Below, one piece after another: positions 55,098 through 64,000 of a stretch of 64,000 nt of DNA. How positions within the stretch are numbered: the first letter of the stretch is position 1; every line of letters starts with the position of its first letter. A model generated the notes under the pieces. The model ran no database searches, was not told the DNA's origin, and saw nothing but the letters and a program-made list of their open reading frames with translations. The position numbers and the translations under genes are program-made. The DNA is from Amycolatopsis thermoflava N1165. GTDB lineage: Bacteria; Actinomycetota; Actinomycetes; Mycobacteriales; Pseudonocardiaceae. The stretch is from positions 1,973,731-2,037,730 of the forward strand of contig NZ_KI421511.1 in NCBI RefSeq assembly GCF_000473265.1, in the 5' to 3' direction.

Positions 55098-56216
55098 GTG
55101 AACAGTGGTGTTCCGTCCGGTCCCGTCCGCGCGGCTCTCGAACCGGCCGACGACGTGGTGCGCCGGTCCCGCGACATCCTGCAGGTGGTGGCAGCAGTGA
55201 CCGGGGAGCCGGTTCTCGCCACCGCCCGCGATCTACCCTCGGCCGAGACCGGGTTGCGCGCGGCGGAGCACATCCTGCTCCGCGAGCTGGCGGCGGGCGG
55301 CGGGAGCGAGCCCACCCGGCTCGCGGCCCTGCTGGCCCAGGTCGGCGGCACTCTGGCGGCGGTACGGGACGGCAGGCTCGCCGTGCGCACCGCCGCGATG
55401 GGCGACCTGCACCAGTGCCTGGCCCGGCTGCGCGGCGCGAGCACGCTGCACGAACTGGCGCAGCAGGTACCGGCCGAACTGCATCGCCTCGGGTACCGGC
55501 GCGCGTTGTTCTCCCGCCTGTCCGGGCCGGCGTGGAGCCCGCGCTCGGCCTACACCCACGACGACCCTCAGCTGGCCGAAGATCTGGTGCGCATCGGCAC
55601 CGCCGTGCCCGGGCAACTCGGCCGCGAACTGCCCGAGACCGAGGTGGTACGCACCCGAACCCCGGTGCTCGTGGACGACGCCCAGCACAACCCACGGGTA
55701 CACCACCGGCTGATCAACCTGGCCCGCACACTGGACTACGTGGTCGCCCCCCTCGTGACCCGGGGCGAGGTGGTCGGCCTGGTGCACGCGGACCAGCATG
55801 TGGAACACGACCACGTCGACGAGTTCGACCTGCGCCTGCTCGGCCTGTTCGCCGAAGGCCTGGGCTGCGTGTTCGAGCGGGTCGTGTTCGCCGAGCAGCT
55901 GCGGCTGATGCGGGAGCGGATGCGGGAGGTCGACGACCTGCTCGACGGGTACCCGGTCGCGCCCCAGCCGCAGCGGCCACGTCCGGTGGATCCGCTCGAG
56001 AAGTACGAGGGCCCCTTCGCCGAGCTGACCCGCCGGGAACTGGACGTCCTGCGCCACCTGGTGCTCGGCGAGAGCAACAGCCAGATCGCGGCCGCGCTGT
56101 TCGTCTCCCCCGGCACGGTGAAGACGCACGTCAAGAACGTGCTGCGCAAGCTCGGCGTCTCCAACCGGGCCGAGGCGACCGCGCGCTACCACGAGCTGAT
56201 GCAGCGGCACCGGTAA
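55098..56216 (+). CDS. LuxR family regulator with GAF domain
   Basis: A 372-residue regulator. The N-terminal third is helical; residues about 125-275 form a GAF domain with LHRLGYRRALFSRLSG, then LDYVVAPLVTRGEVVGLVHA. The C-terminal helix-turn-helix (about 310-365) begins LTRRELDVLRHLVLGESNSQ and has SPGTVKTHVKNVLRKLGVSN. The GTG at 55098 with GAGGAG upstream is the likely start. It is directly upstream of the P450 operon and probably activates it on binding the substrate; boxes at 54985, 56247 and 61801 may be its sites. Confidence 0.88.
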   Translation: MNSGVPSGPVRAALEPADDVVRRSRDILQVVAAVTGEPVLATARDLPSAETGLRAAEHILLRELAAGGGSEPTRLAALLAQVGGTLAAVRDGRLAVRTAAMGDLHQCLARLRGASTLHELAQQVPAELHRLGYRRALFSRLSGPAWSPRSAYTHDDPQLAEDLVRIGTAVPGQLGRELPETEVVRTRTPVLVDDAQHNPRVHHRLINLARTLDYVVAPLVTRGEVVGLVHADQHVEHDHVDEFDLRLLGLFAEGLGCVFERVVFAEQLRLMRERMREVDDLLDGYPVAPQPQRPRPVDPLEKYEGPFAELTRRELDVLRHLVLGESNSQIAAALFVSPGTVKTHVKNVLRKLGVSNRAEATARYHELMQRHR

Positions 56217-56246
56217 GCACGACGGGGAGAGAACCGGGAGAGAAAT

Positions 56247-56264
56247 CTCTTCCTCCGGGGTGAT
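56247..56264. promoter_or_regulatory. CCTCCGGGG box before the P450 gene
   Basis: TCTTCCTCCGGGGTGATG lies 73-90 bases upstream of the P450 ATG. Its core CCTCCGGGG is shared with 54985-55002. An AGAGA-AA-TCTCT inverted repeat is just upstream (56239-56250). Candidate LuxR activator site. Confidence 0.45.
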
Positions 56265-56336
56265 GCACGACACGTCGCACTGGCCCAAAGATTGGACCGA
56301 ACGCGCAACGATGCCGTCTTCCCCGGAGGAACTCAC

Positions 56337-57662
56337 ATGACCACTACGCCCGAACTGTCCACGCGCCCGATCCCGGACGAGATCGCGAGGCAGGTCGTGC
56401 TGCCGGAGGGCCACCGCCACGACGGGCCGCTGTTCGAGGCCTACCGCTGGCTGCGGGAGAACAACCCGCTGGGCCAGGTGAAGGTCGAGGGTTACGACCC
56501 GGTCTGGCTGGTGACCAAGCACGCCGACATCATGGAGATCGAGCGCCAGCCGCACGTGTTCACCAGCGGCGGTGGTGACGAACCCGGCTCGCACAACCCG
56601 ATCCTGCAGAACCAGGCCGGCGACGCCTTCACCAAGCAGCTCACCGGCGGCAGCCTGCGCATCCTCGACACGCTCACCTACCTGGACCCGCCCGAGCACA
56701 CCGAGATCAAGGACATCGCCAACGACTGGTTCCGCCCCGCGAACCTGAAGAAGTGGGAGGACCGGATCCGGGCACTGGCGAAGGAAGCCATCGCCAAGTA
56801 CCTGCGCAGCGGCGCCAACGACATCGACTTCGTCCAGGAGTTCGCCCTCTACTACCCGCTGCACGTGATCATGAGCCTGTTCGGCGTCCCGGAAGAGGAC
56901 GAGCCGCGCATGATGACGCTGACGCAGGAGTTCTTCGGCACCGCAGACCCGGACGCGCAGCGCGAGGACGTCGAGCCGCTGACCCCGGAGGCCGCGGCGC
57001 AGCAGTGGTCGGCCGCCATCCAGGACTTCTACGCCTACTTCGACAAGCTGGTCGAGGACCGGCGGGCGATTCCGCGCGACGACCTGGCGACGATCATCGC
57101 GCGGGCGAAGGACGGCAACGGTGAGTACTACCGCAAGGAGTTCGCCTACGGCTGGTTCATCGCGATCGCGACCGCGGGCCACGACACCACGTCGAGCACG
57201 ATGGCCGGCACGATCGAGGCGCTGGCCCAGTTCCCCGACCAGCTCGCGCAGGTGCAGGCCAACCCCGCCCTGATTCCGGACCTGGTCAACGAGGGCCTGC
57301 GGTGGGTCTCGCCGGTCAAGCAGTTCACCCGTCAGGCCACGCAGGACTACGTGCTGCGCGGGCAGCAGATCCGCACCGGCGACCGGTTCATGCTGCTCTA
57401 CCAGTCGGCCAACCGGGATGCCGACGTGTTCGACGAGCCGGACACCTTCCGCCTGGACCGCAAGCCCAACAAGCACATCGCCTTCGGCTACGGCCCGCAC
57501 ATGTGCATCGGCCAGCACCTGGCCAAGCTCGAGCTGCGGATCATGTTCGAGGAGCTGCTGCCGCTGATCAACAGCGTTCAGGTGACCGGCGAGCGCAAGT
57601 CGGTGGTGACCAACTTCGTCGGGGGGCTGAAGAAACTGCCCGTGCGCCTGGAGCTCAAGTGA
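56337..57662 (+). CDS. Cytochrome P450, CYP108 (P450terp)-like
   Basis: A 441-residue soluble P450. It has the I-helix motif AGHDTTSS near residue 280, ExxR in NEGLRW, and the heme loop [17 protein letters not shown] with the cysteine near residue 389. The N-terminal segments [18 protein letters not shown] and [19 protein letters not shown] and the C-terminal [14 protein letters not shown] closely match what I recall of CYP108A1, which hydroxylates the ring methyl group of alpha-terpineol. ATG 56337 follows GGAGGA. First gene of the P450-reductase-ferredoxin-ADH-ALDH operon. Confidence 0.9.
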
Positions 57663-58876
57663 GCCGCGTTCTGATTGTCGGCGCCGGTCACGCCGGCGCC
57701 ACCCTGGCCGGCCTGCTGCGGCAGGCCGGCCACCGGGGCCCGGTCGAACTCTTCGGAGACGAGGTGGACCTGCCCTACCACCGGCCGCCGCTGTCCAAGA
57801 AGTTCACCGGCGGCGAGCTGGAGCAGTGGCTGCGGCCGCCGGAGTTCTACCGGGAACAAGACATTACGGTCCGGCTCGGCGAGCCCGTCACCACGATCGA
57901 CCGGGACGGGTGCCGGGTGCGGACCGGCTCGGGCGAGTTCCACCGCTACGACCACCTCGTCCTGGCGACCGGAGCCGAGCCACGGGCCCTGCCCGTGCCC
58001 GGCGCGGATCTCGCCGGTGTGGTGTCGCTGCGGACACTGGCCGACGCCCGGATGTTGCGCACCTGCATCGACGAGCGGCGCAGCCTGGTCATCGTCGGTG
58101 GCGGCTACATCGGGCTCGAAGTCGCCGCGGTCGCCCGGTCTTGTGGCGTCGAGGTCACGGTCGTCGAGCGCGAAGACCGGGTGCTGGCCCGCGTCGCCAG
58201 CCCGCGGCTGTCGGAGATCCTGGCCGCCCACCACCGGGAGCAGGGCACGCGGATCGTCACCGGGGCCGAGGTCACTCGCATCGACGGCGCAGGCGGGCGG
58301 GCGCGGGCGGTCGTGCTCGGGGACGGAACAACGATCCCCTCCGAGGCGGTGCTGGTCGGTGTCGGCGCGGTGCCCCGCGACCGGCTGGCCGCGGACGCGG
58401 GACTGCTGTGCGCGCAGGGCGTCGTCGTCGACGAGCACGCCCGCACCAGCGACCCGCGGATCCTCGCGATCGGCGACGTCACCCGGCGGCCCCTGGCCTC
58501 CGGCGCGCTGGTCCGGCTGGAAAGCATCCCGAGCGCCACCGAACAGGCCAGGCAGGCGGTCGCCACCATCACCGGTGCGGCACCGGTGGCGGCCGAGGTG
58601 CCGTGGTTCTGGTCCGATCAGTTCGACCTCAAACTCAAGATCGCCGGCCTCGTCCCGGCCACACCGAGCACGGTGCTGCGCGGCGATCCCGCGACCGGCC
58701 GTTTCGCGCTGTTCCACCACCATGGCGGCACCGTCACCGCCGTCGAATCCGCCAACTCACCCGGCGAGTTCATGGCGGGCAAGAAGTTCATCGCCTCACG
58801 TGCGCGCATCGATCCGGACCGGCTGGCCGACGCCTCGGTCCCGCTGCGCGACGTCGTCCACCAGTACGGAGCCTGA
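57659..58876 (+). CDS. FAD-dependent ferredoxin reductase of the P450 system
   Basis: A 405-residue NAD(P)H:ferredoxin reductase of the putidaredoxin reductase type. The FAD motif GAGHAG is at residue 8, YHRPPLSKK follows, the NAD(P) motif [10 protein letters not shown] lies near residue 143 and the second FAD block GDVTRRP near 275. The GTG at 57659 overlaps the P450 stop (GTGA). It passes electrons through the 2Fe-2S ferredoxin encoded next to the CYP108-like protein, a complete class I P450 system. Confidence 0.92.
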
Positions 58877-58878
58877 CA

Positions 58879-59196
58879 ATGCCCAAGGTCACCTACGCGC
58901 TGCCCGACGGAACCACGCACACCCTCGACGTCCCGTGTGGACAGAGCGTCATGGACGGTTCCGTGCGCAACAACCTGCCCGGCATCGTCGCCGAGTGCGG
59001 CGGCAGCTGCTCGTGCGCCACCTGCCACGTCTTCGTCGACGAAGGCGGCGCGTGCTTCGACGAGCCCACCGACGAGGAGCGTGAGCTGCTCGAATACGCC
59101 GAAGGCGCGCGCCCCGACTCCCGCCTGTCGTGCCAGCTGATCCTCAGCGACGCCTGCGAGCACGTGCGCGTCACTGTCCCCGACACCAACGGCTGA
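58879..59196 (+). CDS. 2Fe-2S ferredoxin (putidaredoxin/terpredoxin type)
   Basis: A 105-residue ferredoxin. The cluster ligands are C40, C46 and C49 (with an extra C44 between) in ECGGSCSCATCH, and C85 in RLSCQLIL. Spacing C-x5-C-x2-C-x35-C is that of putidaredoxin and terpredoxin. It starts two bases after the reductase stop. It shuttles single electrons from the reductase to the P450. Confidence 0.93.
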   Translation: MPKVTYALPDGTTHTLDVPCGQSVMDGSVRNNLPGIVAECGGSCSCATCHVFVDEGGACFDEPTDEERELLEYAEGARPDSRLSCQLILSDACEHVRVTVPDTNG

Positions 59197-59231
59197 TTCC
59201 CTCCCTCCCCCACGGACAAAGGAGTCCTCGC

Positions 59232-60341
59232 ATGGACATCACCGCCGCGGTGGCCACCGAGATCGGTGGCACCTTCGAGCTGCAACGACTCACCCTGGCC
59301 GATCCCGCACCCGGCGAGGTCGTCGTCGAGATCGCCGGCGTCGGCCTGTGCCACACCGACCTGGCCGCCAAGGACGGCCATCTGCCCTTCCCACTGCCCG
59401 GCGTCTTCGGTCACGAGGGCAGCGGAGTGGTCACCGCGGTCGGCGACGGCGTCACGAAGGTCGCCGTCGGCGACAAGGTGGTGCTCAGTTTCGACAGCTG
59501 CGGCGAGTGCCGCGAGTGCCGCCGCGACGAGCCCGCCTACTGCCAGAACTTCATGGCCTATAACTTCGGTGGCGCCCGGCAGGACGGCACCAGCCCGCTG
59601 ACCCGCGAGGGCGAGCCGGTCGGCTCGGCGTTCTTCGGGCAGTCCTCCTTCGCCACCCACGCCCTGGCCCGGGAACGCAACGTGGTGAAGGTGCCCGACG
59701 ACTCGCCGCTGGCGGTGCTCGGCCCGCTCGGCTGCGGGGTGCAGACCGGCGCGGGCGCGGTGCTCAACTCACTGGACTGTCAGCCGGGTGAGTCGCTGCT
59801 CGTGCTGGGTGGCGGTTCGGTCGGGCTCTCGGCGGTGCTGGCCGGTGTGGTGCGGGAGTTGAGCCGGATCATCGTCGTCGAGCCGCACGCCGCGCGCCGG
59901 GACCTCGCGTTGTCGCTGGGCGCCACGGACGTGATCGACCCGGCGGACGGGCCGCTGCCCGAGCATGTGCGGGCGATCGTGCCCGACGGGGTGGACCACG
60001 CGATCGACACGACCGGGATCGCCGCCGTCCTGCAGGACGCCATGCTCGCGCTGGCCCACCGCGCGAAGGTCGGGATCATCGGGGTGCCCGCCGATCCCGA
60101 GGCCGCGCTCGCGCTGAACCTCATCCAGGCGCAGGTGCTGGGTGTGCGGGTGATGGGCATCGTCGAGGGCGACAGCGACCCCGACGTGTTCGTCCCGCAG
60201 CTGCTCCAGCTGCACCGCAGCGGGCGTTTTCCGTTCGACAAGCTTGTCACCACCATGCCGTTCAACCGGATCAACGAAGCCGTCGCCGCCCAGCACCGGG
60301 GCGACGCGGTCAAGATCGTGCTCGTGCCCGAGGAGTCCTGA
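59232..60341 (+). CDS. Zinc-dependent alcohol dehydrogenase
   Basis: A 369-residue medium-chain dehydrogenase. Catalytic zinc ligands are in GLCHTDLAAKDG and FGHEGSGVV; the structural zinc is held by the four cysteines of CGECRECRRDEPAYC. The nucleotide motif is GGGSVGLSAV. It resembles aryl/benzyl and terpenoid alcohol dehydrogenases. Placed after the ferredoxin gene, it likely oxidises the primary alcohol made by the P450. GGAGTCCTCG precedes the ATG. Confidence 0.9.
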   Translation: MDITAAVATEIGGTFELQRLTLADPAPGEVVVEIAGVGLCHTDLAAKDGHLPFPLPGVFGHEGSGVVTAVGDGVTKVAVGDKVVLSFDSCGECRECRRDEPAYCQNFMAYNFGGARQDGTSPLTREGEPVGSAFFGQSSFATHALARERNVVKVPDDSPLAVLGPLGCGVQTGAGAVLNSLDCQPGESLLVLGGGSVGLSAVLAGVVRELSRIIVVEPHAARRDLALSLGATDVIDPADGPLPEHVRAIVPDGVDHAIDTTGIAAVLQDAMLALAHRAKVGIIGVPADPEAALALNLIQAQVLGVRVMGIVEGDSDPDVFVPQLLQLHRSGRFPFDKLVTTMPFNRINEAVAAQHRGDAVKIVLVPEES

Positions 60342-61795
60342 TGACCATCGACTACGACCGGCTCTACCTCGCCGGCAACTGGACCGCGCCTGTGACGCGG
60401 CAGCGCATCGACGTGCACTCGGCCGGCACCGAAGAGCTGATCGGCAGTGTTCCCGAAGCCGCTGAGTCCGACGTCGACGACGCCGTGGCCGCGGCGCGCC
60501 GCGCGTTCGACGATCCGGCGGGCTGGTCCCGCTGGGAGCCGCGGCGGCGCGCCGAGGTGCTCGAACGGTTCGCCGTCGCGCTGGAAAAGCGCGTCGGGGA
60601 GACCGCCCGGCGGGTGACGATCCAGAACGGCATGCCGCTCTCACTGGCACAGCAGTTCGAAGGCGGGTTCCCGCCGGTGCTGCTGCGGTACTTCGCCGGG
60701 CTGGTCACCCAGAACCCACAGGAGGAGACCCGGCCGGGCATGCTCGGCGGCAGCTCGCGCGTCATCCGGGAGCCGATCGGAGTCGTCGCGGCGGTCGTGC
60801 CGTGGAACGTGCCGCAGGCGATCACGTTCCTCAAACTGGCGCCCGCGCTGGCCGCGGGGTGCACCGTGGTGCTCAAGCCCGCACCGGAGACGGTGCTGGA
60901 CGCGATGCTGATGGCCGAGGCCGCGGCGGAGGCCGGGCTTCCCGAGGGCGTGCTCAGCGTGGTCCCGGGCGGCCGTGAGCTGGGCGCCTACCTGATCGCG
61001 CACCCGGGCGTGGACAAGGTGTCGTTCACCGGCTCCACCGCGGCGGGACGGTCGATCGCCGAGACCTGCGGGCGCCTGCTGCGGCCGGTGACGCTGGAAC
61101 TGGGCGGCAAGTCCGCCGCGATCGTCCTCGACGACGCGAACCTCGCCGAAACCATCGAGAGCTTCTTCGCGGCCACGCTGCTGAACAACGGCCAGATCTG
61201 CTGGCTCGGCACCCGCGTGCTGGCTCCGCGGTCGCGCTACGGCGAGGTCGTGGACACCATCACCGACCTGGCCCGCTCGCTCGCGGTCGGGGACCCACTC
61301 GACGAGGACACCCAGGTCGGGCCGCTGGTGTCCGCCCGCCAGCGGGACCGGGTCGAGTCCTACATCGCCAAGGGGCTCGATGAGGGTGCGCGCCTGACCG
61401 CGGGCGGCGGGCGGCCGTCCGGGCTCGACCGCGGCTGGTTCGTGGAGCCCACGGTGTTCGCGGACGTGGACAACCGGCACACGATCGCCCAGGAGGAGAT
61501 CTTCGGCCCGGTGCTGTCGGTGATCCCCTACACCGATGAGGACGAGGCGGTGGCGATCGCCAACGCCAGCGAGTACGGGCTGGGCGGCAGCGTATGGACG
61601 ACCGACCCCGGCCGCGGCGAATCCGTCGCCCGGCGGGTGGCGTCGGGAACGATCGGTATCAACGCCTACGCCAACGACCCGACCGCGCCCTTCGGCGGCA
61701 TCAAGTCCAGCGGCATCGGACGGGAGCTGGGGCCCGAGGGCCTGCACTCCTACCAGGTGTTCAAGACCATCTACCTGGACCCTCCGAAGGGGTAG
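60341..61795 (+). CDS. Aldehyde dehydrogenase
   Basis: A 484-residue aldehyde dehydrogenase with FTGSTAAGRSI, ELGGKSAAIVL and the catalytic cysteine in NNGQICWLG. ATG overlaps the ADH stop by one base, so it completes a P450-ADH-ALDH chain that turns a methyl group into a carboxylate. The stop overlaps the first of two boxes that probably control the next unit. Confidence 0.92.
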   Translation: MTIDYDRLYLAGNWTAPVTRQRIDVHSAGTEELIGSVPEAAESDVDDAVAAARRAFDDPAGWSRWEPRRRAEVLERFAVALEKRVGETARRVTIQNGMPLSLAQQFEGGFPPVLLRYFAGLVTQNPQEETRPGMLGGSSRVIREPIGVVAAVVPWNVPQAITFLKLAPALAAGCTVVLKPAPETVLDAMLMAEAAAEAGLPEGVLSVVPGGRELGAYLIAHPGVDKVSFTGSTAAGRSIAETCGRLLRPVTLELGGKSAAIVLDDANLAETIESFFAATLLNNGQICWLGTRVLAPRSRYGEVVDTITDLARSLAVGDPLDEDTQVGPLVSARQRDRVESYIAKGLDEGARLTAGGGRPSGLDRGWFVEPTVFADVDNRHTIAQEEIFGPVLSVIPYTDEDEAVAIANASEYGLGGSVWTTDPGRGESVARRVASGTIGINAYANDPTAPFGGIKSSGIGRELGPEGLHSYQVFKTIYLDPPKG

Positions 61796-61819
61796 GCGAC
61801 CTCTCCCCTAAGGGGTAAA
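61781..61819. promoter_or_regulatory. Two GGGGTA boxes upstream of the hydrolase operon
   Basis: CCTCCGAAGGGGTAGG (61781-61796) and CTCTCCCCTAAGGGGTAAA (61801-61819) are tandem copies 20 bases apart, about two turns of DNA. The second contains the palindrome CCCCT-A-AGGGG. They end 14 bases before a -35 element, a fitting place for the LuxR activator. Confidence 0.5.
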
Positions 61820-61833
61820 CGGCGGCGGCACCC

Positions 61834-61862
61834 TTGATAACGCTCGTTCACAGACCTAGATT
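61834..61862 (+). promoter_or_regulatory. Candidate sigma-70-type promoter
   Basis: TTGATA, exactly 17 bases, TAGATT. It gives a start around 61870, about 65 bases before the hydrolase ATG. Its position next to the two GGGGTA boxes suggests activator-dependent transcription of a second unit. Confidence 0.55.
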
Positions 61863-61934
61863 CGGGACAACGCGAGCGCGCCACGGGTGCCGCCGCCGTG
61901 TTCTTCTCACACTTCGAAAGGATCTCGGGTCACC

Positions 61935-62729
61935 ATGGACGACTTCACCGACATCACGTACAAGGTCGACAACGGCCTCGCGTGGATCACGATCAACCGG
62001 CCCGAGCGGTACAACTCCTTCCGCGCCCGCACCGTCGACGAGCTCGTCAAGGCGTTCAAGAAGGCGTGGAACAGCAACGAGGTCGGCGTCATCTGCCTGA
62101 CCGGCGCCGGCGAGAAGGCGTTCTGCACCGGCGGCGACCAGAAGCAGCGCGCCGAGACCGGCGACTACGGCCCGTCGGACTCCGGGCTGTTCGAGATCGA
62201 CGCCCTGCACCACGTCATCCGCGACGTGCCGAAGCCGGTCATCGCCGCGGTGAACGGCTTCGCGATCGGCGGCGGGCACGTGCTGCACGTGCTGTGCGAC
62301 CTGACGATCGCCGCCGACACCGCGGTCTTCGGCCAGAACGGCCCACGCGTCGGCTCGTTCGACGCCGGGTTCGGCACCGGCTACCTCGCCCGCATCCTGG
62401 GCGAGAAGCGGGCGCGCGAGGTCTGGTTCCTGTGCCGCCGCTACACCGCGGCCCAGATGGAGAACTGGGGCCTGGTCAACAAGGTCGTCCCCGCGGCCGA
62501 CCTGCAGAACGAGGTGCGCGCCTGGGCCGACGAGATCCTGGCCCTGTCCCCCACCGCACTGAAGGTGCTCAAGCAGTCCTTCAACACCGACACCGAGCAG
62601 TTCGCCAGCGTCGGGCAGATGGCCTACTCGCACCTGAAGATCTTCGGCGAGACCGCCGAGGCGCAGGAGGGCATCAAGGCGTTCAACGAGAAGCGCAGCC
62701 CGGACTTCTCCGCCTTCCGCGGCAACTGA
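61935..62729 (+). CDS. BadI/MenB-type crotonase (2-ketocyclohexanecarboxyl-CoA hydrolase-like)
   Basis: A 264-residue crotonase-superfamily enzyme. Segments LAWITINRPERYNSFRARTV, GAGEKAFCTGGDQKQR, AIRDVPKPV-like VIRDVPKPVIAAVNGFAIGG and GYLARILGEKRAREVWFLC match both 1,4-dihydroxynaphthoyl-CoA synthase (MenB) and BadI. The phrase GEKKAREIWYMCKRY that I recall from BadI is close to GEKRAREVWFLCRRY here. BadI opens a six-membered ring by hydrolysing 2-oxocyclohexanecarboxyl-CoA. A MenB role is less likely in this catabolic setting. ATG 61935 is used. Confidence 0.85.
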   Translation: MDDFTDITYKVDNGLAWITINRPERYNSFRARTVDELVKAFKKAWNSNEVGVICLTGAGEKAFCTGGDQKQRAETGDYGPSDSGLFEIDALHHVIRDVPKPVIAAVNGFAIGGGHVLHVLCDLTIAADTAVFGQNGPRVGSFDAGFGTGYLARILGEKRAREVWFLCRRYTAAQMENWGLVNKVVPAADLQNEVRAWADEILALSPTALKVLKQSFNTDTEQFASVGQMAYSHLKIFGETAEAQEGIKAFNEKRSPDFSAFRGN

Positions 62730-62744
62730 TAACGGCCGTTCACG

Positions 62745-63881
62745 ATGAAGTTCACCCCCGAACAGGATGAGTTCGCCGCCGCGGTGCGCGCGTTCTGCGA
62801 CCGCGAGTGCCGGACACTCGCCCAGCGGGACGCGCTCACCGCGGGCGGCACCCTCGCCAACAGCCCGGAGATCCTGCGCAAGCTCGCCGCACACGGCTGG
62901 CTCGGCGTGTCGATCCCGGAGGCCTACGGCGGAGCCGGGGCCGGCATGGTCGACGAGTGCCTGTTCCTCGAGGAGACCTCGCGGGGCCTGGCGCCGATCA
63001 CGGCCTACTCGACCGGGCTGACCGCCGCGCAGACCTACCTGCGTTACGGCACCGAAGAGCAGAAGAAGGACATCCTCGGCGGCATCTGCGCCGGCGAGAT
63101 CGAGGCGATCGCGCTGTCCGAACCCGGGGCGGGCTCCGACCTGGGCTCGGTGCGCATCAAGGCCACGCTCGACGGCGACCACTACGTGGTCAACGGCCAG
63201 AAGACGTGGACCTCGGCCGCGCACATCGCCAGGCACATCCTGCTGCTGGCCCGCACCGACCCGGGCGGGACCAAGCACCAGGGCCTGACGTTGCTGATCG
63301 TGCCCACGGACACCCCCGGCCTGGAGATCCGCGGGATCCAGACCATGGAACCGCACACGGTCAACGACCTGTTCTTCACCGACGTGCGGATCCCGGTCGC
63401 GAACGTGGTCGGCGAAGCGGGACAGGCGTGGAAGCACCTCATGCGCGGCCTGTCCGTCGAACGGCTCATCATCGCCACCATGTCGCTGGGCGCGGCGCAG
63501 CGGTCGCTGGACGACGTGCTGGCCTACGTCAAGGAGCGGGAGCAGTTCGGCCGCCCGATCGGCAGCTTCCAGGCCATCCGGCACCGCATCGCCGACCTGG
63601 CCACCGAAATCGCCTACGCCAAGGCGTTCGTCTACGACGTCGCCGCGCGGATCGACGCCGGCGAGGAGGACCAGCTGGCGCGGGAGGGCGCGATGGCGAA
63701 GCTCAAGTGCACCGAGATCGCCAAGCACACCGCGCTGGAGGCGATGCAGATGATGGGCGGCTACGGCTACGCCCGCGAATACGGCATGGAAGGCCAGGTG
63801 CGCAAGGCACTGGCCCCGCCCATCTACGGCGGCACCAACGAGATCCAGCGCGAGATCATCAGCAAGAGCCTCGGGCTGTAG
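62745..63881 (+). CDS. Acyl-CoA dehydrogenase
   Basis: A 378-residue flavoprotein. It shows LSEPGAGSDLGSVR and NGQKTWTSAAH for FAD contact, QAIRHRIADLATEIA, and a C-terminal IYGGTNEIQREI. The usual YEGT reads YGGT, so the base must lie elsewhere, as in isovaleryl-CoA-type enzymes. It follows the BadI-like gene by 15 bases and would desaturate the ring or chain acyl-CoA before hydration. Confidence 0.9.
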   Translation: MKFTPEQDEFAAAVRAFCDRECRTLAQRDALTAGGTLANSPEILRKLAAHGWLGVSIPEAYGGAGAGMVDECLFLEETSRGLAPITAYSTGLTAAQTYLRYGTEEQKKDILGGICAGEIEAIALSEPGAGSDLGSVRIKATLDGDHYVVNGQKTWTSAAHIARHILLLARTDPGGTKHQGLTLLIVPTDTPGLEIRGIQTMEPHTVNDLFFTDVRIPVANVVGEAGQAWKHLMRGLSVERLIIATMSLGAAQRSLDDVLAYVKEREQFGRPIGSFQAIRHRIADLATEIAYAKAFVYDVAARIDAGEEDQLAREGAMAKLKCTEIAKHTALEAMQMMGGYGYAREYGMEGQVRKALAPPIYGGTNEIQREIISKSLGL

Positions 63882-63893
63882 AGAGGGACACGC

Positions 63894-64000
63894 ATGGCAT
63901 CGACGAGGAAGTCCGTGTTCGCCCCCGACCTGCTGGCGGGCAAGCGGATCCTGATCACCGGCGGCGGCACCGGCCTCGGCCGCGGCGTGGCCCGGCACCT
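63894..64000 (+). CDS. SDR family oxidoreductase (truncated by window end)
   Basis: Only 35 residues are visible: MASTRKSVFAPDLLAGKRIL and the dinucleotide-binding ITGGGTGLGRGVARHL. The TGGGTGLG form is typical of dienoyl-CoA reductases and 3-hydroxyacyl-CoA dehydrogenases of the SDR class. It starts 12 bases after the dehydrogenase gene with GAGAGGGAC before the ATG, so it belongs to the same operon. Confidence 0.75.
   Translation, partial: MASTRKSVFAPDLLAGKRILITGGGTGLGRGVARH

Follow-up and report, generated by a model that had tools for sequence, protein, structure and literature searches.

The terp operon of P450terp (CYP108A1) from Pseudomonas comprises genes for a P450, a ferredoxin, an alcohol dehydrogenase and an aldehyde dehydrogenase. 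In actinobacteria, the ring methyl group is oxidized by CYP108N12 and CYP108N14 of Rhodococcus globerulus, with limonene and p-cymene as substrates of both and terpineols as additional substrates of CYP108N14, according to the accessible part of the report (PMC11279926). CYP108J1 of Rhodococcus P14, a P450 with polycyclic aromatics as substrate, lies in a cluster of LuxR, ferredoxin, P450, reductase, alcohol dehydrogenase and aldehyde dehydrogenase genes that is controlled by a LuxR-family repressor (PMC7037279). For ring opening, a bad-like BadI/BadH cluster for cyclohexanecarboxylate is described in Rhodococcus aetherivorans BCP1 (chcpca; partial text of PMC5906575). Here we analyse a stretch of 64,000 nucleotides from Amycolatopsis thermoflava N1165 (the window), for which an earlier note had proposed a P450-initiated terpenoid ring-opening pathway. 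The end of the window carries a CYP108-type P450 operon followed by a unit headed by HYD, a crotonase-fold CoA hydrolase and candidate ring-opening enzyme. Judged from sequence, both belong to a conserved soil-actinobacterial island whose probable function is the oxidation of a methyl substituent of a six-membered cyclic terpene, followed by ring cleavage.

A close described counterpart is found in Castellaniella, in which the methyl group of limonene is oxidized to perillate and the proposed next steps are those of MrcF (hydratase), MrcD (BadH-like) and MrcE (BadI-like hydrolase). The mrc cluster also encodes MrcB, an acyl-CoA dehydrogenase, and MrcC, a 2,4-dienoyl reductase (888 bp); insertion mutants in mrcF and in mrcC fail to grow on limonene, the mrcF mutant failing on alpha-phellandrene as well (PMC4109377, as far as its available text goes).

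A conserved island with a P450 operon and a putative ring-opening module

From gene content, order, conservation and co-occurrence, which are observed, we infer every reaction and substrate: the island reasonably likely encodes an aerobic route for p-menthane-type compounds such as limonene or alpha-terpineol, in which the ring is opened by hydrolysis. The P450, with its ferredoxin and reductase, would convert a ring methyl to a hydroxymethyl group, which the alcohol dehydrogenase (ADH) and aldehyde dehydrogenase (ALDH) would take to the carboxylate. A CoA ligase encoded downstream (LIG) would form the CoA thioester, a crotonase-type hydratase would add water to the ring double bond, and a BadH-like short-chain dehydrogenase/reductase (SDR) would oxidize the hydroxyl to give the 2-oxo-acyl-CoA. 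HYD, together with or in place of a second, MenB-like hydrolase (MenB2), would then open the ring hydrolytically, and the branched pimeloyl-CoA product would be degraded by an acyl-CoA dehydrogenase (ACAD), a dienoyl-CoA-reductase-like SDR, thiolase and 3-hydroxy-3-methylglutaryl-CoA (HMG-CoA) lyase.

The association of the two parts extends well beyond the window. An Amycolatopsis-like genome (G278) has the island genes in the same order, with identities of 77–93% from the P450 to the CoA transferase, 68–93% for the rest and 62% for the LuxR-type regulator; its matched stretch is without the CaiB and transporter genes, and its DNA is 88.6% identical to Amycolatopsis locus L021. From 292 HYD loci in named genomes 80 were kept, 54 of them with HYD at least 75% identical, and flanks of up to 10 kb were covered (more than 8 kb upstream in 41 of the 54 loci, at most 8 kb in 13). 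Within these flanks a P450 of at least 55% identity occurs at 16 of the 54 loci (ten in mycobacteria, three in Amycolatopsis and one each in Frankia, Protofrankia and Nocardioides); SDR is found at 32, ACAD at 26, LIG at 15 and BadH at 14, and the order HYD–ACAD–SDR at 21. No ferredoxin or reductase matching at 40% or more was seen at the ten mycobacterial P450–HYD loci, where the P450 is frequently close to the limit of the stretch covered. Frankia and Protofrankia have the two genes in divergent orientation, Nocardioides has them inverted, and in mycobacteria they are a few kb apart, so that their linkage has persisted despite re-arrangement.

Co-occurrence was followed genome by genome in two samples. 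Among the 298 genomes of an order sample (cut-offs of E 1e-150 for the P450 and E 1e-100 for HYD), the P450 is present in four and HYD of at least 75% identity in seven; three of the four pass a P450 identity limit of 80%, namely the window genome, G278 and G087, which have a P450 83–100% identical with HYD 4.3–5.5 kb away. Such a three-of-three co-occurrence has a chance probability of 8e-6, or 3.4e-4 without the window genome, for identity limits that were set once the hits were known. In a class sample of 394 Actinomycetes genomes, partly overlapping the first (P450 at E 1e-150, HYD at E 1e-125), HYD is present in all seven P450 genomes and the P450 in seven of eight HYD genomes, the window genome counted. 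In the six others, the distance between the two genes is about 0.7 kb (two genomes), 19 kb (one) or 60 kb (one, with a weaker P450 copy 31 kb from HYD), and in the remaining two they lie on different contigs. The conserved island, the re-arranged linkage and the genome co-occurrence together uphold the proposed connection between the P450 operon and the hydrolase unit.

Comparison with described systems

A MenB/BadI-group hydrolase, a BadH-like SDR, an ACAD and a dienoyl-reductase-like gene lie on one island here. The mrc/ctm/geo island of Castellaniella defragrans 65Phen, as far as its description is available, likewise combines a ligase, a hydratase, a BadH-type SDR, a BadI-type hydrolase, an ACAD and a 2,4-dienoyl reductase; however, its first step is catalysed by the oxygen-independent limonene dehydrogenase CtmAB, whereas the window island has a P450. 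HYD is 52% identical to an Azoarcus gene that fits a published MrcE relative by neighbours and order, but lacks its Tyr. The mrcC gene would fit an SDR-type reductase of about the size of the window SDR (299 amino acids), a likeness of size alone.

The terp operon contains the same kinds of gene but is proteobacterial, and its P450 is more distant (see below). CYP108N12, CYP108N14 and P450tol of R. coprophilus are actinobacterial P450s that hydroxylate ring or benzylic methyls, as the window enzyme would, the CYP108N enzymes being likened by description only; the accessible text reports no ring-opening module with them. The bad-ali systems of R. palustris and Aromatoleum and the chcpca cluster share the logic of CoA ligase, ACAD, hydratase, BadH and BadI. 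The parts of their descriptions at hand mention no methyl-oxidizing P450 operon, and the BadH-like protein and ligase of the window genome score below the curated cut-offs.

The P450 is a CYP108 enzyme closest to P450tol

Among solved structures, P450tol ranks first for the window P450 (723 bits), followed by P450terp (454) and 3tkt (324). Identity to P450tol (PDB 7v40) amounts to 307 of 438 positions (70.1%), and to P450terp (1cpt) to 198 of 420 (47.1%), so that P450terp, to which the earlier note likened the enzyme, is not its closest relative. By convention a CYP family takes in proteins with more than 40% identity to a member, and both values place the enzyme in CYP108.

At the 11 toluene-contact residues listed for P450tol (available part of PMC11219674), the window P450 reads ITTFFWAAFFV. 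Two of these residues, T112 and T114, are not shared with P450tol, which carries Ala and Pro instead. In P450terp the pair is Ser112 and Thr114, and a Phe replaces the Trp common to the window P450 and P450tol. The T/T pair is common to Amycolatopsis loci L021, L022 (from A. echigonensis, which has the island) and L024, to G278 and G087 and to Nocardioides L065. A/P is the pair of Frankia L050 and Protofrankia L053, of R. ruber L017 and G230, and of each of the ten mycobacterial P450s tabulated, that of the M. paragordonae plasmid included; for the plasmid P450s of R. erythropolis and R. opacus it is V/T and T/S.

HYD is a candidate third subfamily next to MenB and BadI

HYD scores 334.8 bits against the BadI model TIGR03210 (cut-off 467.6), and 326.7 and 348.9 bits against the MenB models TIGR01929 (cut-off 342.7) and PRK07396 (cut-off 380). 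In a tree of 99 sequences, including three distant crotonases that lie far off, HYD falls in a separate clade of 36 rows (support 96/99, from a bootstrap that had not settled). Five MenB references with men neighbours form one clade with MenB2 and the window-genome gene at 5348140 (100/96). A further clade unites the three named badI references and two more plasmid genes (100/97, under the same unsettled bootstrap), leaving HYD outside; Azoarcus L105, initially labelled badI and 60% identical to HYD, also falls outside the badI clade. Given the unsettled bootstrap and some long branches, no relation among the HYD, MenB and badI groups is claimed.

Ser140 and Asp142 of HYD are invariant in 38 of 38 aligned rows and form the Ser-x-Asp of the active-site loop, to which we ascribe a catalytic-site role in the BadI/MenB group. 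At the position of E. coli MenB Tyr258, a C-terminal Tyr that we suppose to be an active-site residue, HYD has Gly; the Tyr is found in all three named badI references, in all five MenB references from men operons and in the Azoarcus protein of MrcE type. By its score below cut-off, its separate clade and this Gly, HYD is not a BadI as tested here, and the scores under both MenB cut-offs, the separate clade and a catabolic rather than menaquinone context speak against MenB. Of the ‘BadI-like hydrolase' of the earlier note there remain the MenB/BadI group membership and the conserved Ser and Asp. These features make HYD a candidate third subfamily next to MenB and BadI, and a candidate ring opener.

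It is the MenB-clade gene at 5348140 that has menD as a neighbour, about 200 nt away, HYD being in the catabolic island instead, and neither HYD nor MenB2 therefore seems needed for menaquinone synthesis. MenB2 exceeds the two MenB cut-offs (447.5 bits for a cut-off of 380, and 385.7 for 342.7), and automatic naming would probably call it MenB despite its catabolic setting. As to which of the two would open the ring, 13 of the 80 loci have HYD and a BadH homologue no more than 200 nt apart, mostly in distant relatives (Solirubrobacterales, Thermoleophilaceae, Chloroflexi and others), and MenB2 is not in the stretch covered at nine of the 14 BadH-linked close HYD loci, which favours HYD. In the window's genome MenB2 is an equal candidate, for reasons of gene position given below.

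Relatives of HYD also occur on plasmids. Three actinobacterial plasmid records annotate members of the subfamily only as ‘enoyl-CoA hydratase-related'. A Mycobacterium dioxanotrophicus plasmid has a 66% HYD homologue and an SDR beside ADH, ALDH, AMP-binding protein and GroEL genes. On a plasmid of the proteobacterium Sphingopyxis macrogoltabida, a dienoyl-reductase-like SDR (59% to the window SDR), an acyl-CoA dehydrogenase, a BadH-like and a HYD/BadI-like protein, and an AMP-binding protein are encoded with an alkane 1-monooxygenase; by its gene content this locus is possibly an AlkB-started counterpart of the island.

Roles of the window SDR and ACAD

The closest solved structure to the window SDR is 1w6u, a mitochondrial 2,4-dienoyl-CoA reductase, and its score against PRK07677 is 229 bits (cut-off 318). 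This resemblance leads us to reject a BadH-type dehydrogenase; the BadH-like gene lies about 13 kb beyond this SDR. ACAD scores 169–180 bits against two cyclohexanecarboxyl-CoA dehydrogenase models with cut-offs of 575 and 650. It had been put forward as a necessary ring desaturase, a step that is superfluous for perillate and oleuropeate, which already have a ring double bond adjacent to the carboxyl.

Gene layout and the island past the window end

The P450, reductase, ferredoxin, ADH and ALDH genes are all present on the plus strand and closely spaced, as the earlier note had described them (Table 1), and the families of the window genes are assigned far above chance level (Pfam). From P450 to SDR the intergenic gaps are, in order, −4, 2, 35, −1, 139, 15 and 12 nt; gaps of −4 to 35 nt inside each unit would agree with transcription as two units or as a single long one. 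Between ALDH and HYD there is an 18-nt inverted repeat (61819–61836 and 61882–61899, 94% complementary, 45 nt apart), a candidate terminator, attenuator or operator. The closest solved structure to ADH is 5tnx, the next being 1f8f, a benzyl alcohol dehydrogenase. A homologue of the LuxR-type regulator (45–66%) also lies 5′ of the P450 in Amycolatopsis L021, L022 and L024 and in G278 and G087.

Table 1. Coordinates of the island genes discussed (window positions unless a prefix is given)
Feature	Coordinates	Strand	Basis or remark
LuxR-type regulator with GAF domain	55041 or 55098 to 56216	+	Pfam GerE + GAF
CYP108-type cytochrome P450	56337-57662	+	PF00067
FAD ferredoxin reductase	57659-58876	+	PF07992 + PF14759; 4-nt overlap with P450
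[2Fe-2S] ferredoxin	58879-59196	+	PF00111
Zn alcohol dehydrogenase (ADH), aryl/benzyl-alcohol type	59232-60341	+	PF08240/PF00107
Aldehyde dehydrogenase (ALDH)	60341-61795	+	PF00171, 519 bits; closest solved structure 3b4w
HYD, crotonase-fold CoA hydrolase, candidate ring-opening enzyme	61935-62729	+	
Acyl-CoA dehydrogenase (ACAD)	62745-63881	+	PF00441/PF02770/PF02771
SDR, 2,4-dienoyl-CoA-reductase-like	63894-64793 (= L009:9125-10024)	+	Window stops at 64000
MenB2, MenB-like hydrolase	G000:C1:2050707-2051531 (L010:2707-3531)	-	
BadH-like SDR	G000:C1:2051528-2052286 (L010:3528-4286)		Best profile BadH, 311 bits, cut-off 431
CoA ligase LIG	G000:C1:2063558-2065216		TIGR03208 cyclohexanecarboxylate-CoA ligase, 434 bits, cut-off 792

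The catabolic island as a whole measures about 37 kb (about G000:C1:2028771-2066143) and is cut by the window end at 64000. Beyond the SDR, on the opposite strand, follow genes for a phosphotransferase, a DUF7064 protein, two crotonases, an LLM oxidoreductase, a CaiB-type CoA transferase and a branched-chain-type ABC transporter, whose binding protein was called by Pfam and whose remaining subunits were called by eye. Then come a crotonase, MenB2, the BadH-like SDR, HMG-CoA lyase, a CoA transferase, a thiolase and an SDR; after these come three further acyl-CoA dehydrogenases, an acetate/acetoacetate-CoA-ligase-like enzyme, a ligase closest to cyclohexanecarboxylate-CoA ligase, and a crotonase. 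The ligase and hydratase sought past 64000 thus have counterparts there, namely LIG, one of two CoA ligases, and four crotonase genes other than HYD and MenB2 (ECH1-4), which are crotonase-type hydratase candidates. LIG is also the best window-genome match (59%) of a Mycobacterium ligase encoded about 6 kb from HYD.

Alternative readings

Several observations weigh against a terpenoid route through HYD. No P450 of at least 55% identity lies in the flank of 38 of the 54 close HYD loci (13 of the 54 having at most 8 kb upstream), and the fourth order-sample genome with the P450, G230 (64% identical), has no HYD at 1e-100. The six other class-sample genomes are of one family and hence not independent, so that the tiny formal probability should not be read literally, and absences in both samples are not firm because few candidates were scored per genome. 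HYD lacks the C-terminal Tyr; it is MenB2 that overlaps the BadH-like gene (by 4 nt) in the window's genome, HYD being about 15 kb from it. The P450 pocket varies among HYD-linked species and does not simply track the ring module, and a 75% identical P450 of R. ruber adjoins a set of aromatic-ring dioxygenase genes, so that close relatives may act on p-cymene.

The same chemistry might serve a non-terpenoid alicyclic substrate, such as methylcyclohexane or a naphthenic acid, with ACAD as ring desaturase, which we consider unlikely. The best profiles of LIG and of the BadH-like SDR are those of cyclohexanecarboxylate-CoA ligase and BadH, in both cases under the cut-off (Table 1), and R. aetherivorans, which has the bad-like cluster, degrades cyclohexanecarboxylate (PMC5906575, in part). 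Against this stand the ACAD scores far under both dehydrogenase cut-offs and the substrates of CYP108 enzymes in the literature consulted, which are monoterpenes, alkylbenzenes or polycyclic aromatics; HMG-CoA lyase and the dienoyl-CoA reductase would also better match a branched product.

It is doubtful that the P450 operon just oxidizes p-cymene or another alkylbenzene to an aromatic acid, the HYD unit being a separate acyl-CoA module, even though the P450 is so close to P450tol. On plasmid pmega_1 of R. ruber the related P450 (L017) is followed by ring-hydroxylating dioxygenase, amidohydrolase and extradiol dioxygenase genes, and an HYD–ACAD–SDR trio (L106) lies about 70 kb off. This plasmid has one methyl-oxidation cassette and two ring modules. 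In the window genome, however, the nearest of three ring-hydroxylating dioxygenases above cut-off is about 0.4 Mb away, and P450 and HYD co-occur genome by genome. Moreover, a BadI-type step is useless for a benzoate-type acid unless the ring is reduced.

That the trio is a general beta-oxidation unit which by chance adjoins the P450 operon is very improbable: HYD does occur, often with ACAD or SDR, at many loci without the P450, and the 139-nt gap with its inverted repeat separates it from ALDH, but the linkage outlasts re-arrangement in Frankia, Protofrankia, Nocardioides and mycobacteria and the order-sample chance estimates are small, albeit with post hoc identity limits.

The p-menthane-type route has a narrower variant, a joint reading that we regard as quite unlikely. 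The island would be an aerobic actinobacterial terpineol pathway in which the hydroxyl side chains of T112 and T114 of the P450 seat the tertiary alcohol of alpha-terpineol, the HYD subfamily opens the ring without the C-terminal Tyr and, after shortening, the HMG-CoA-lyase-like enzyme splits off acetone, derived from the hydroxyisopropyl group, in a retro-aldol reaction. One methyl-oxidation cassette would then serve an aromatic module in Rhodococcus and an alicyclic one in Amycolatopsis, Frankia and Nocardioides.

Significance

The combined route had been presented as new to actinobacteria. Both halves are already known there, from CYP108N12 and CYP108N14 and from the Rhodococcus bad-like cluster, and this part of the claim falls. 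The literature search found no paper joining CYP108 methyl oxidation to ring opening in an actinobacterium; the union of the two is what is new, as far as that search shows.

Monoterpenes are a large natural carbon flux, and the accessible literature on actinobacterial CYP108 enzymes ends at the first oxidation (CYP108N12 and CYP108N14). The HYD subfamily is large and well conserved, and would represent a probable ring opener that differs from the references of both MenB and BadI in a residue presumed to lie in the active site. The island provides a complete list of genes, open to testing, that leads from the hydrocarbon to beta-oxidation for Amycolatopsis and Frankia and, in part, for Nocardioides and mycobacteria.

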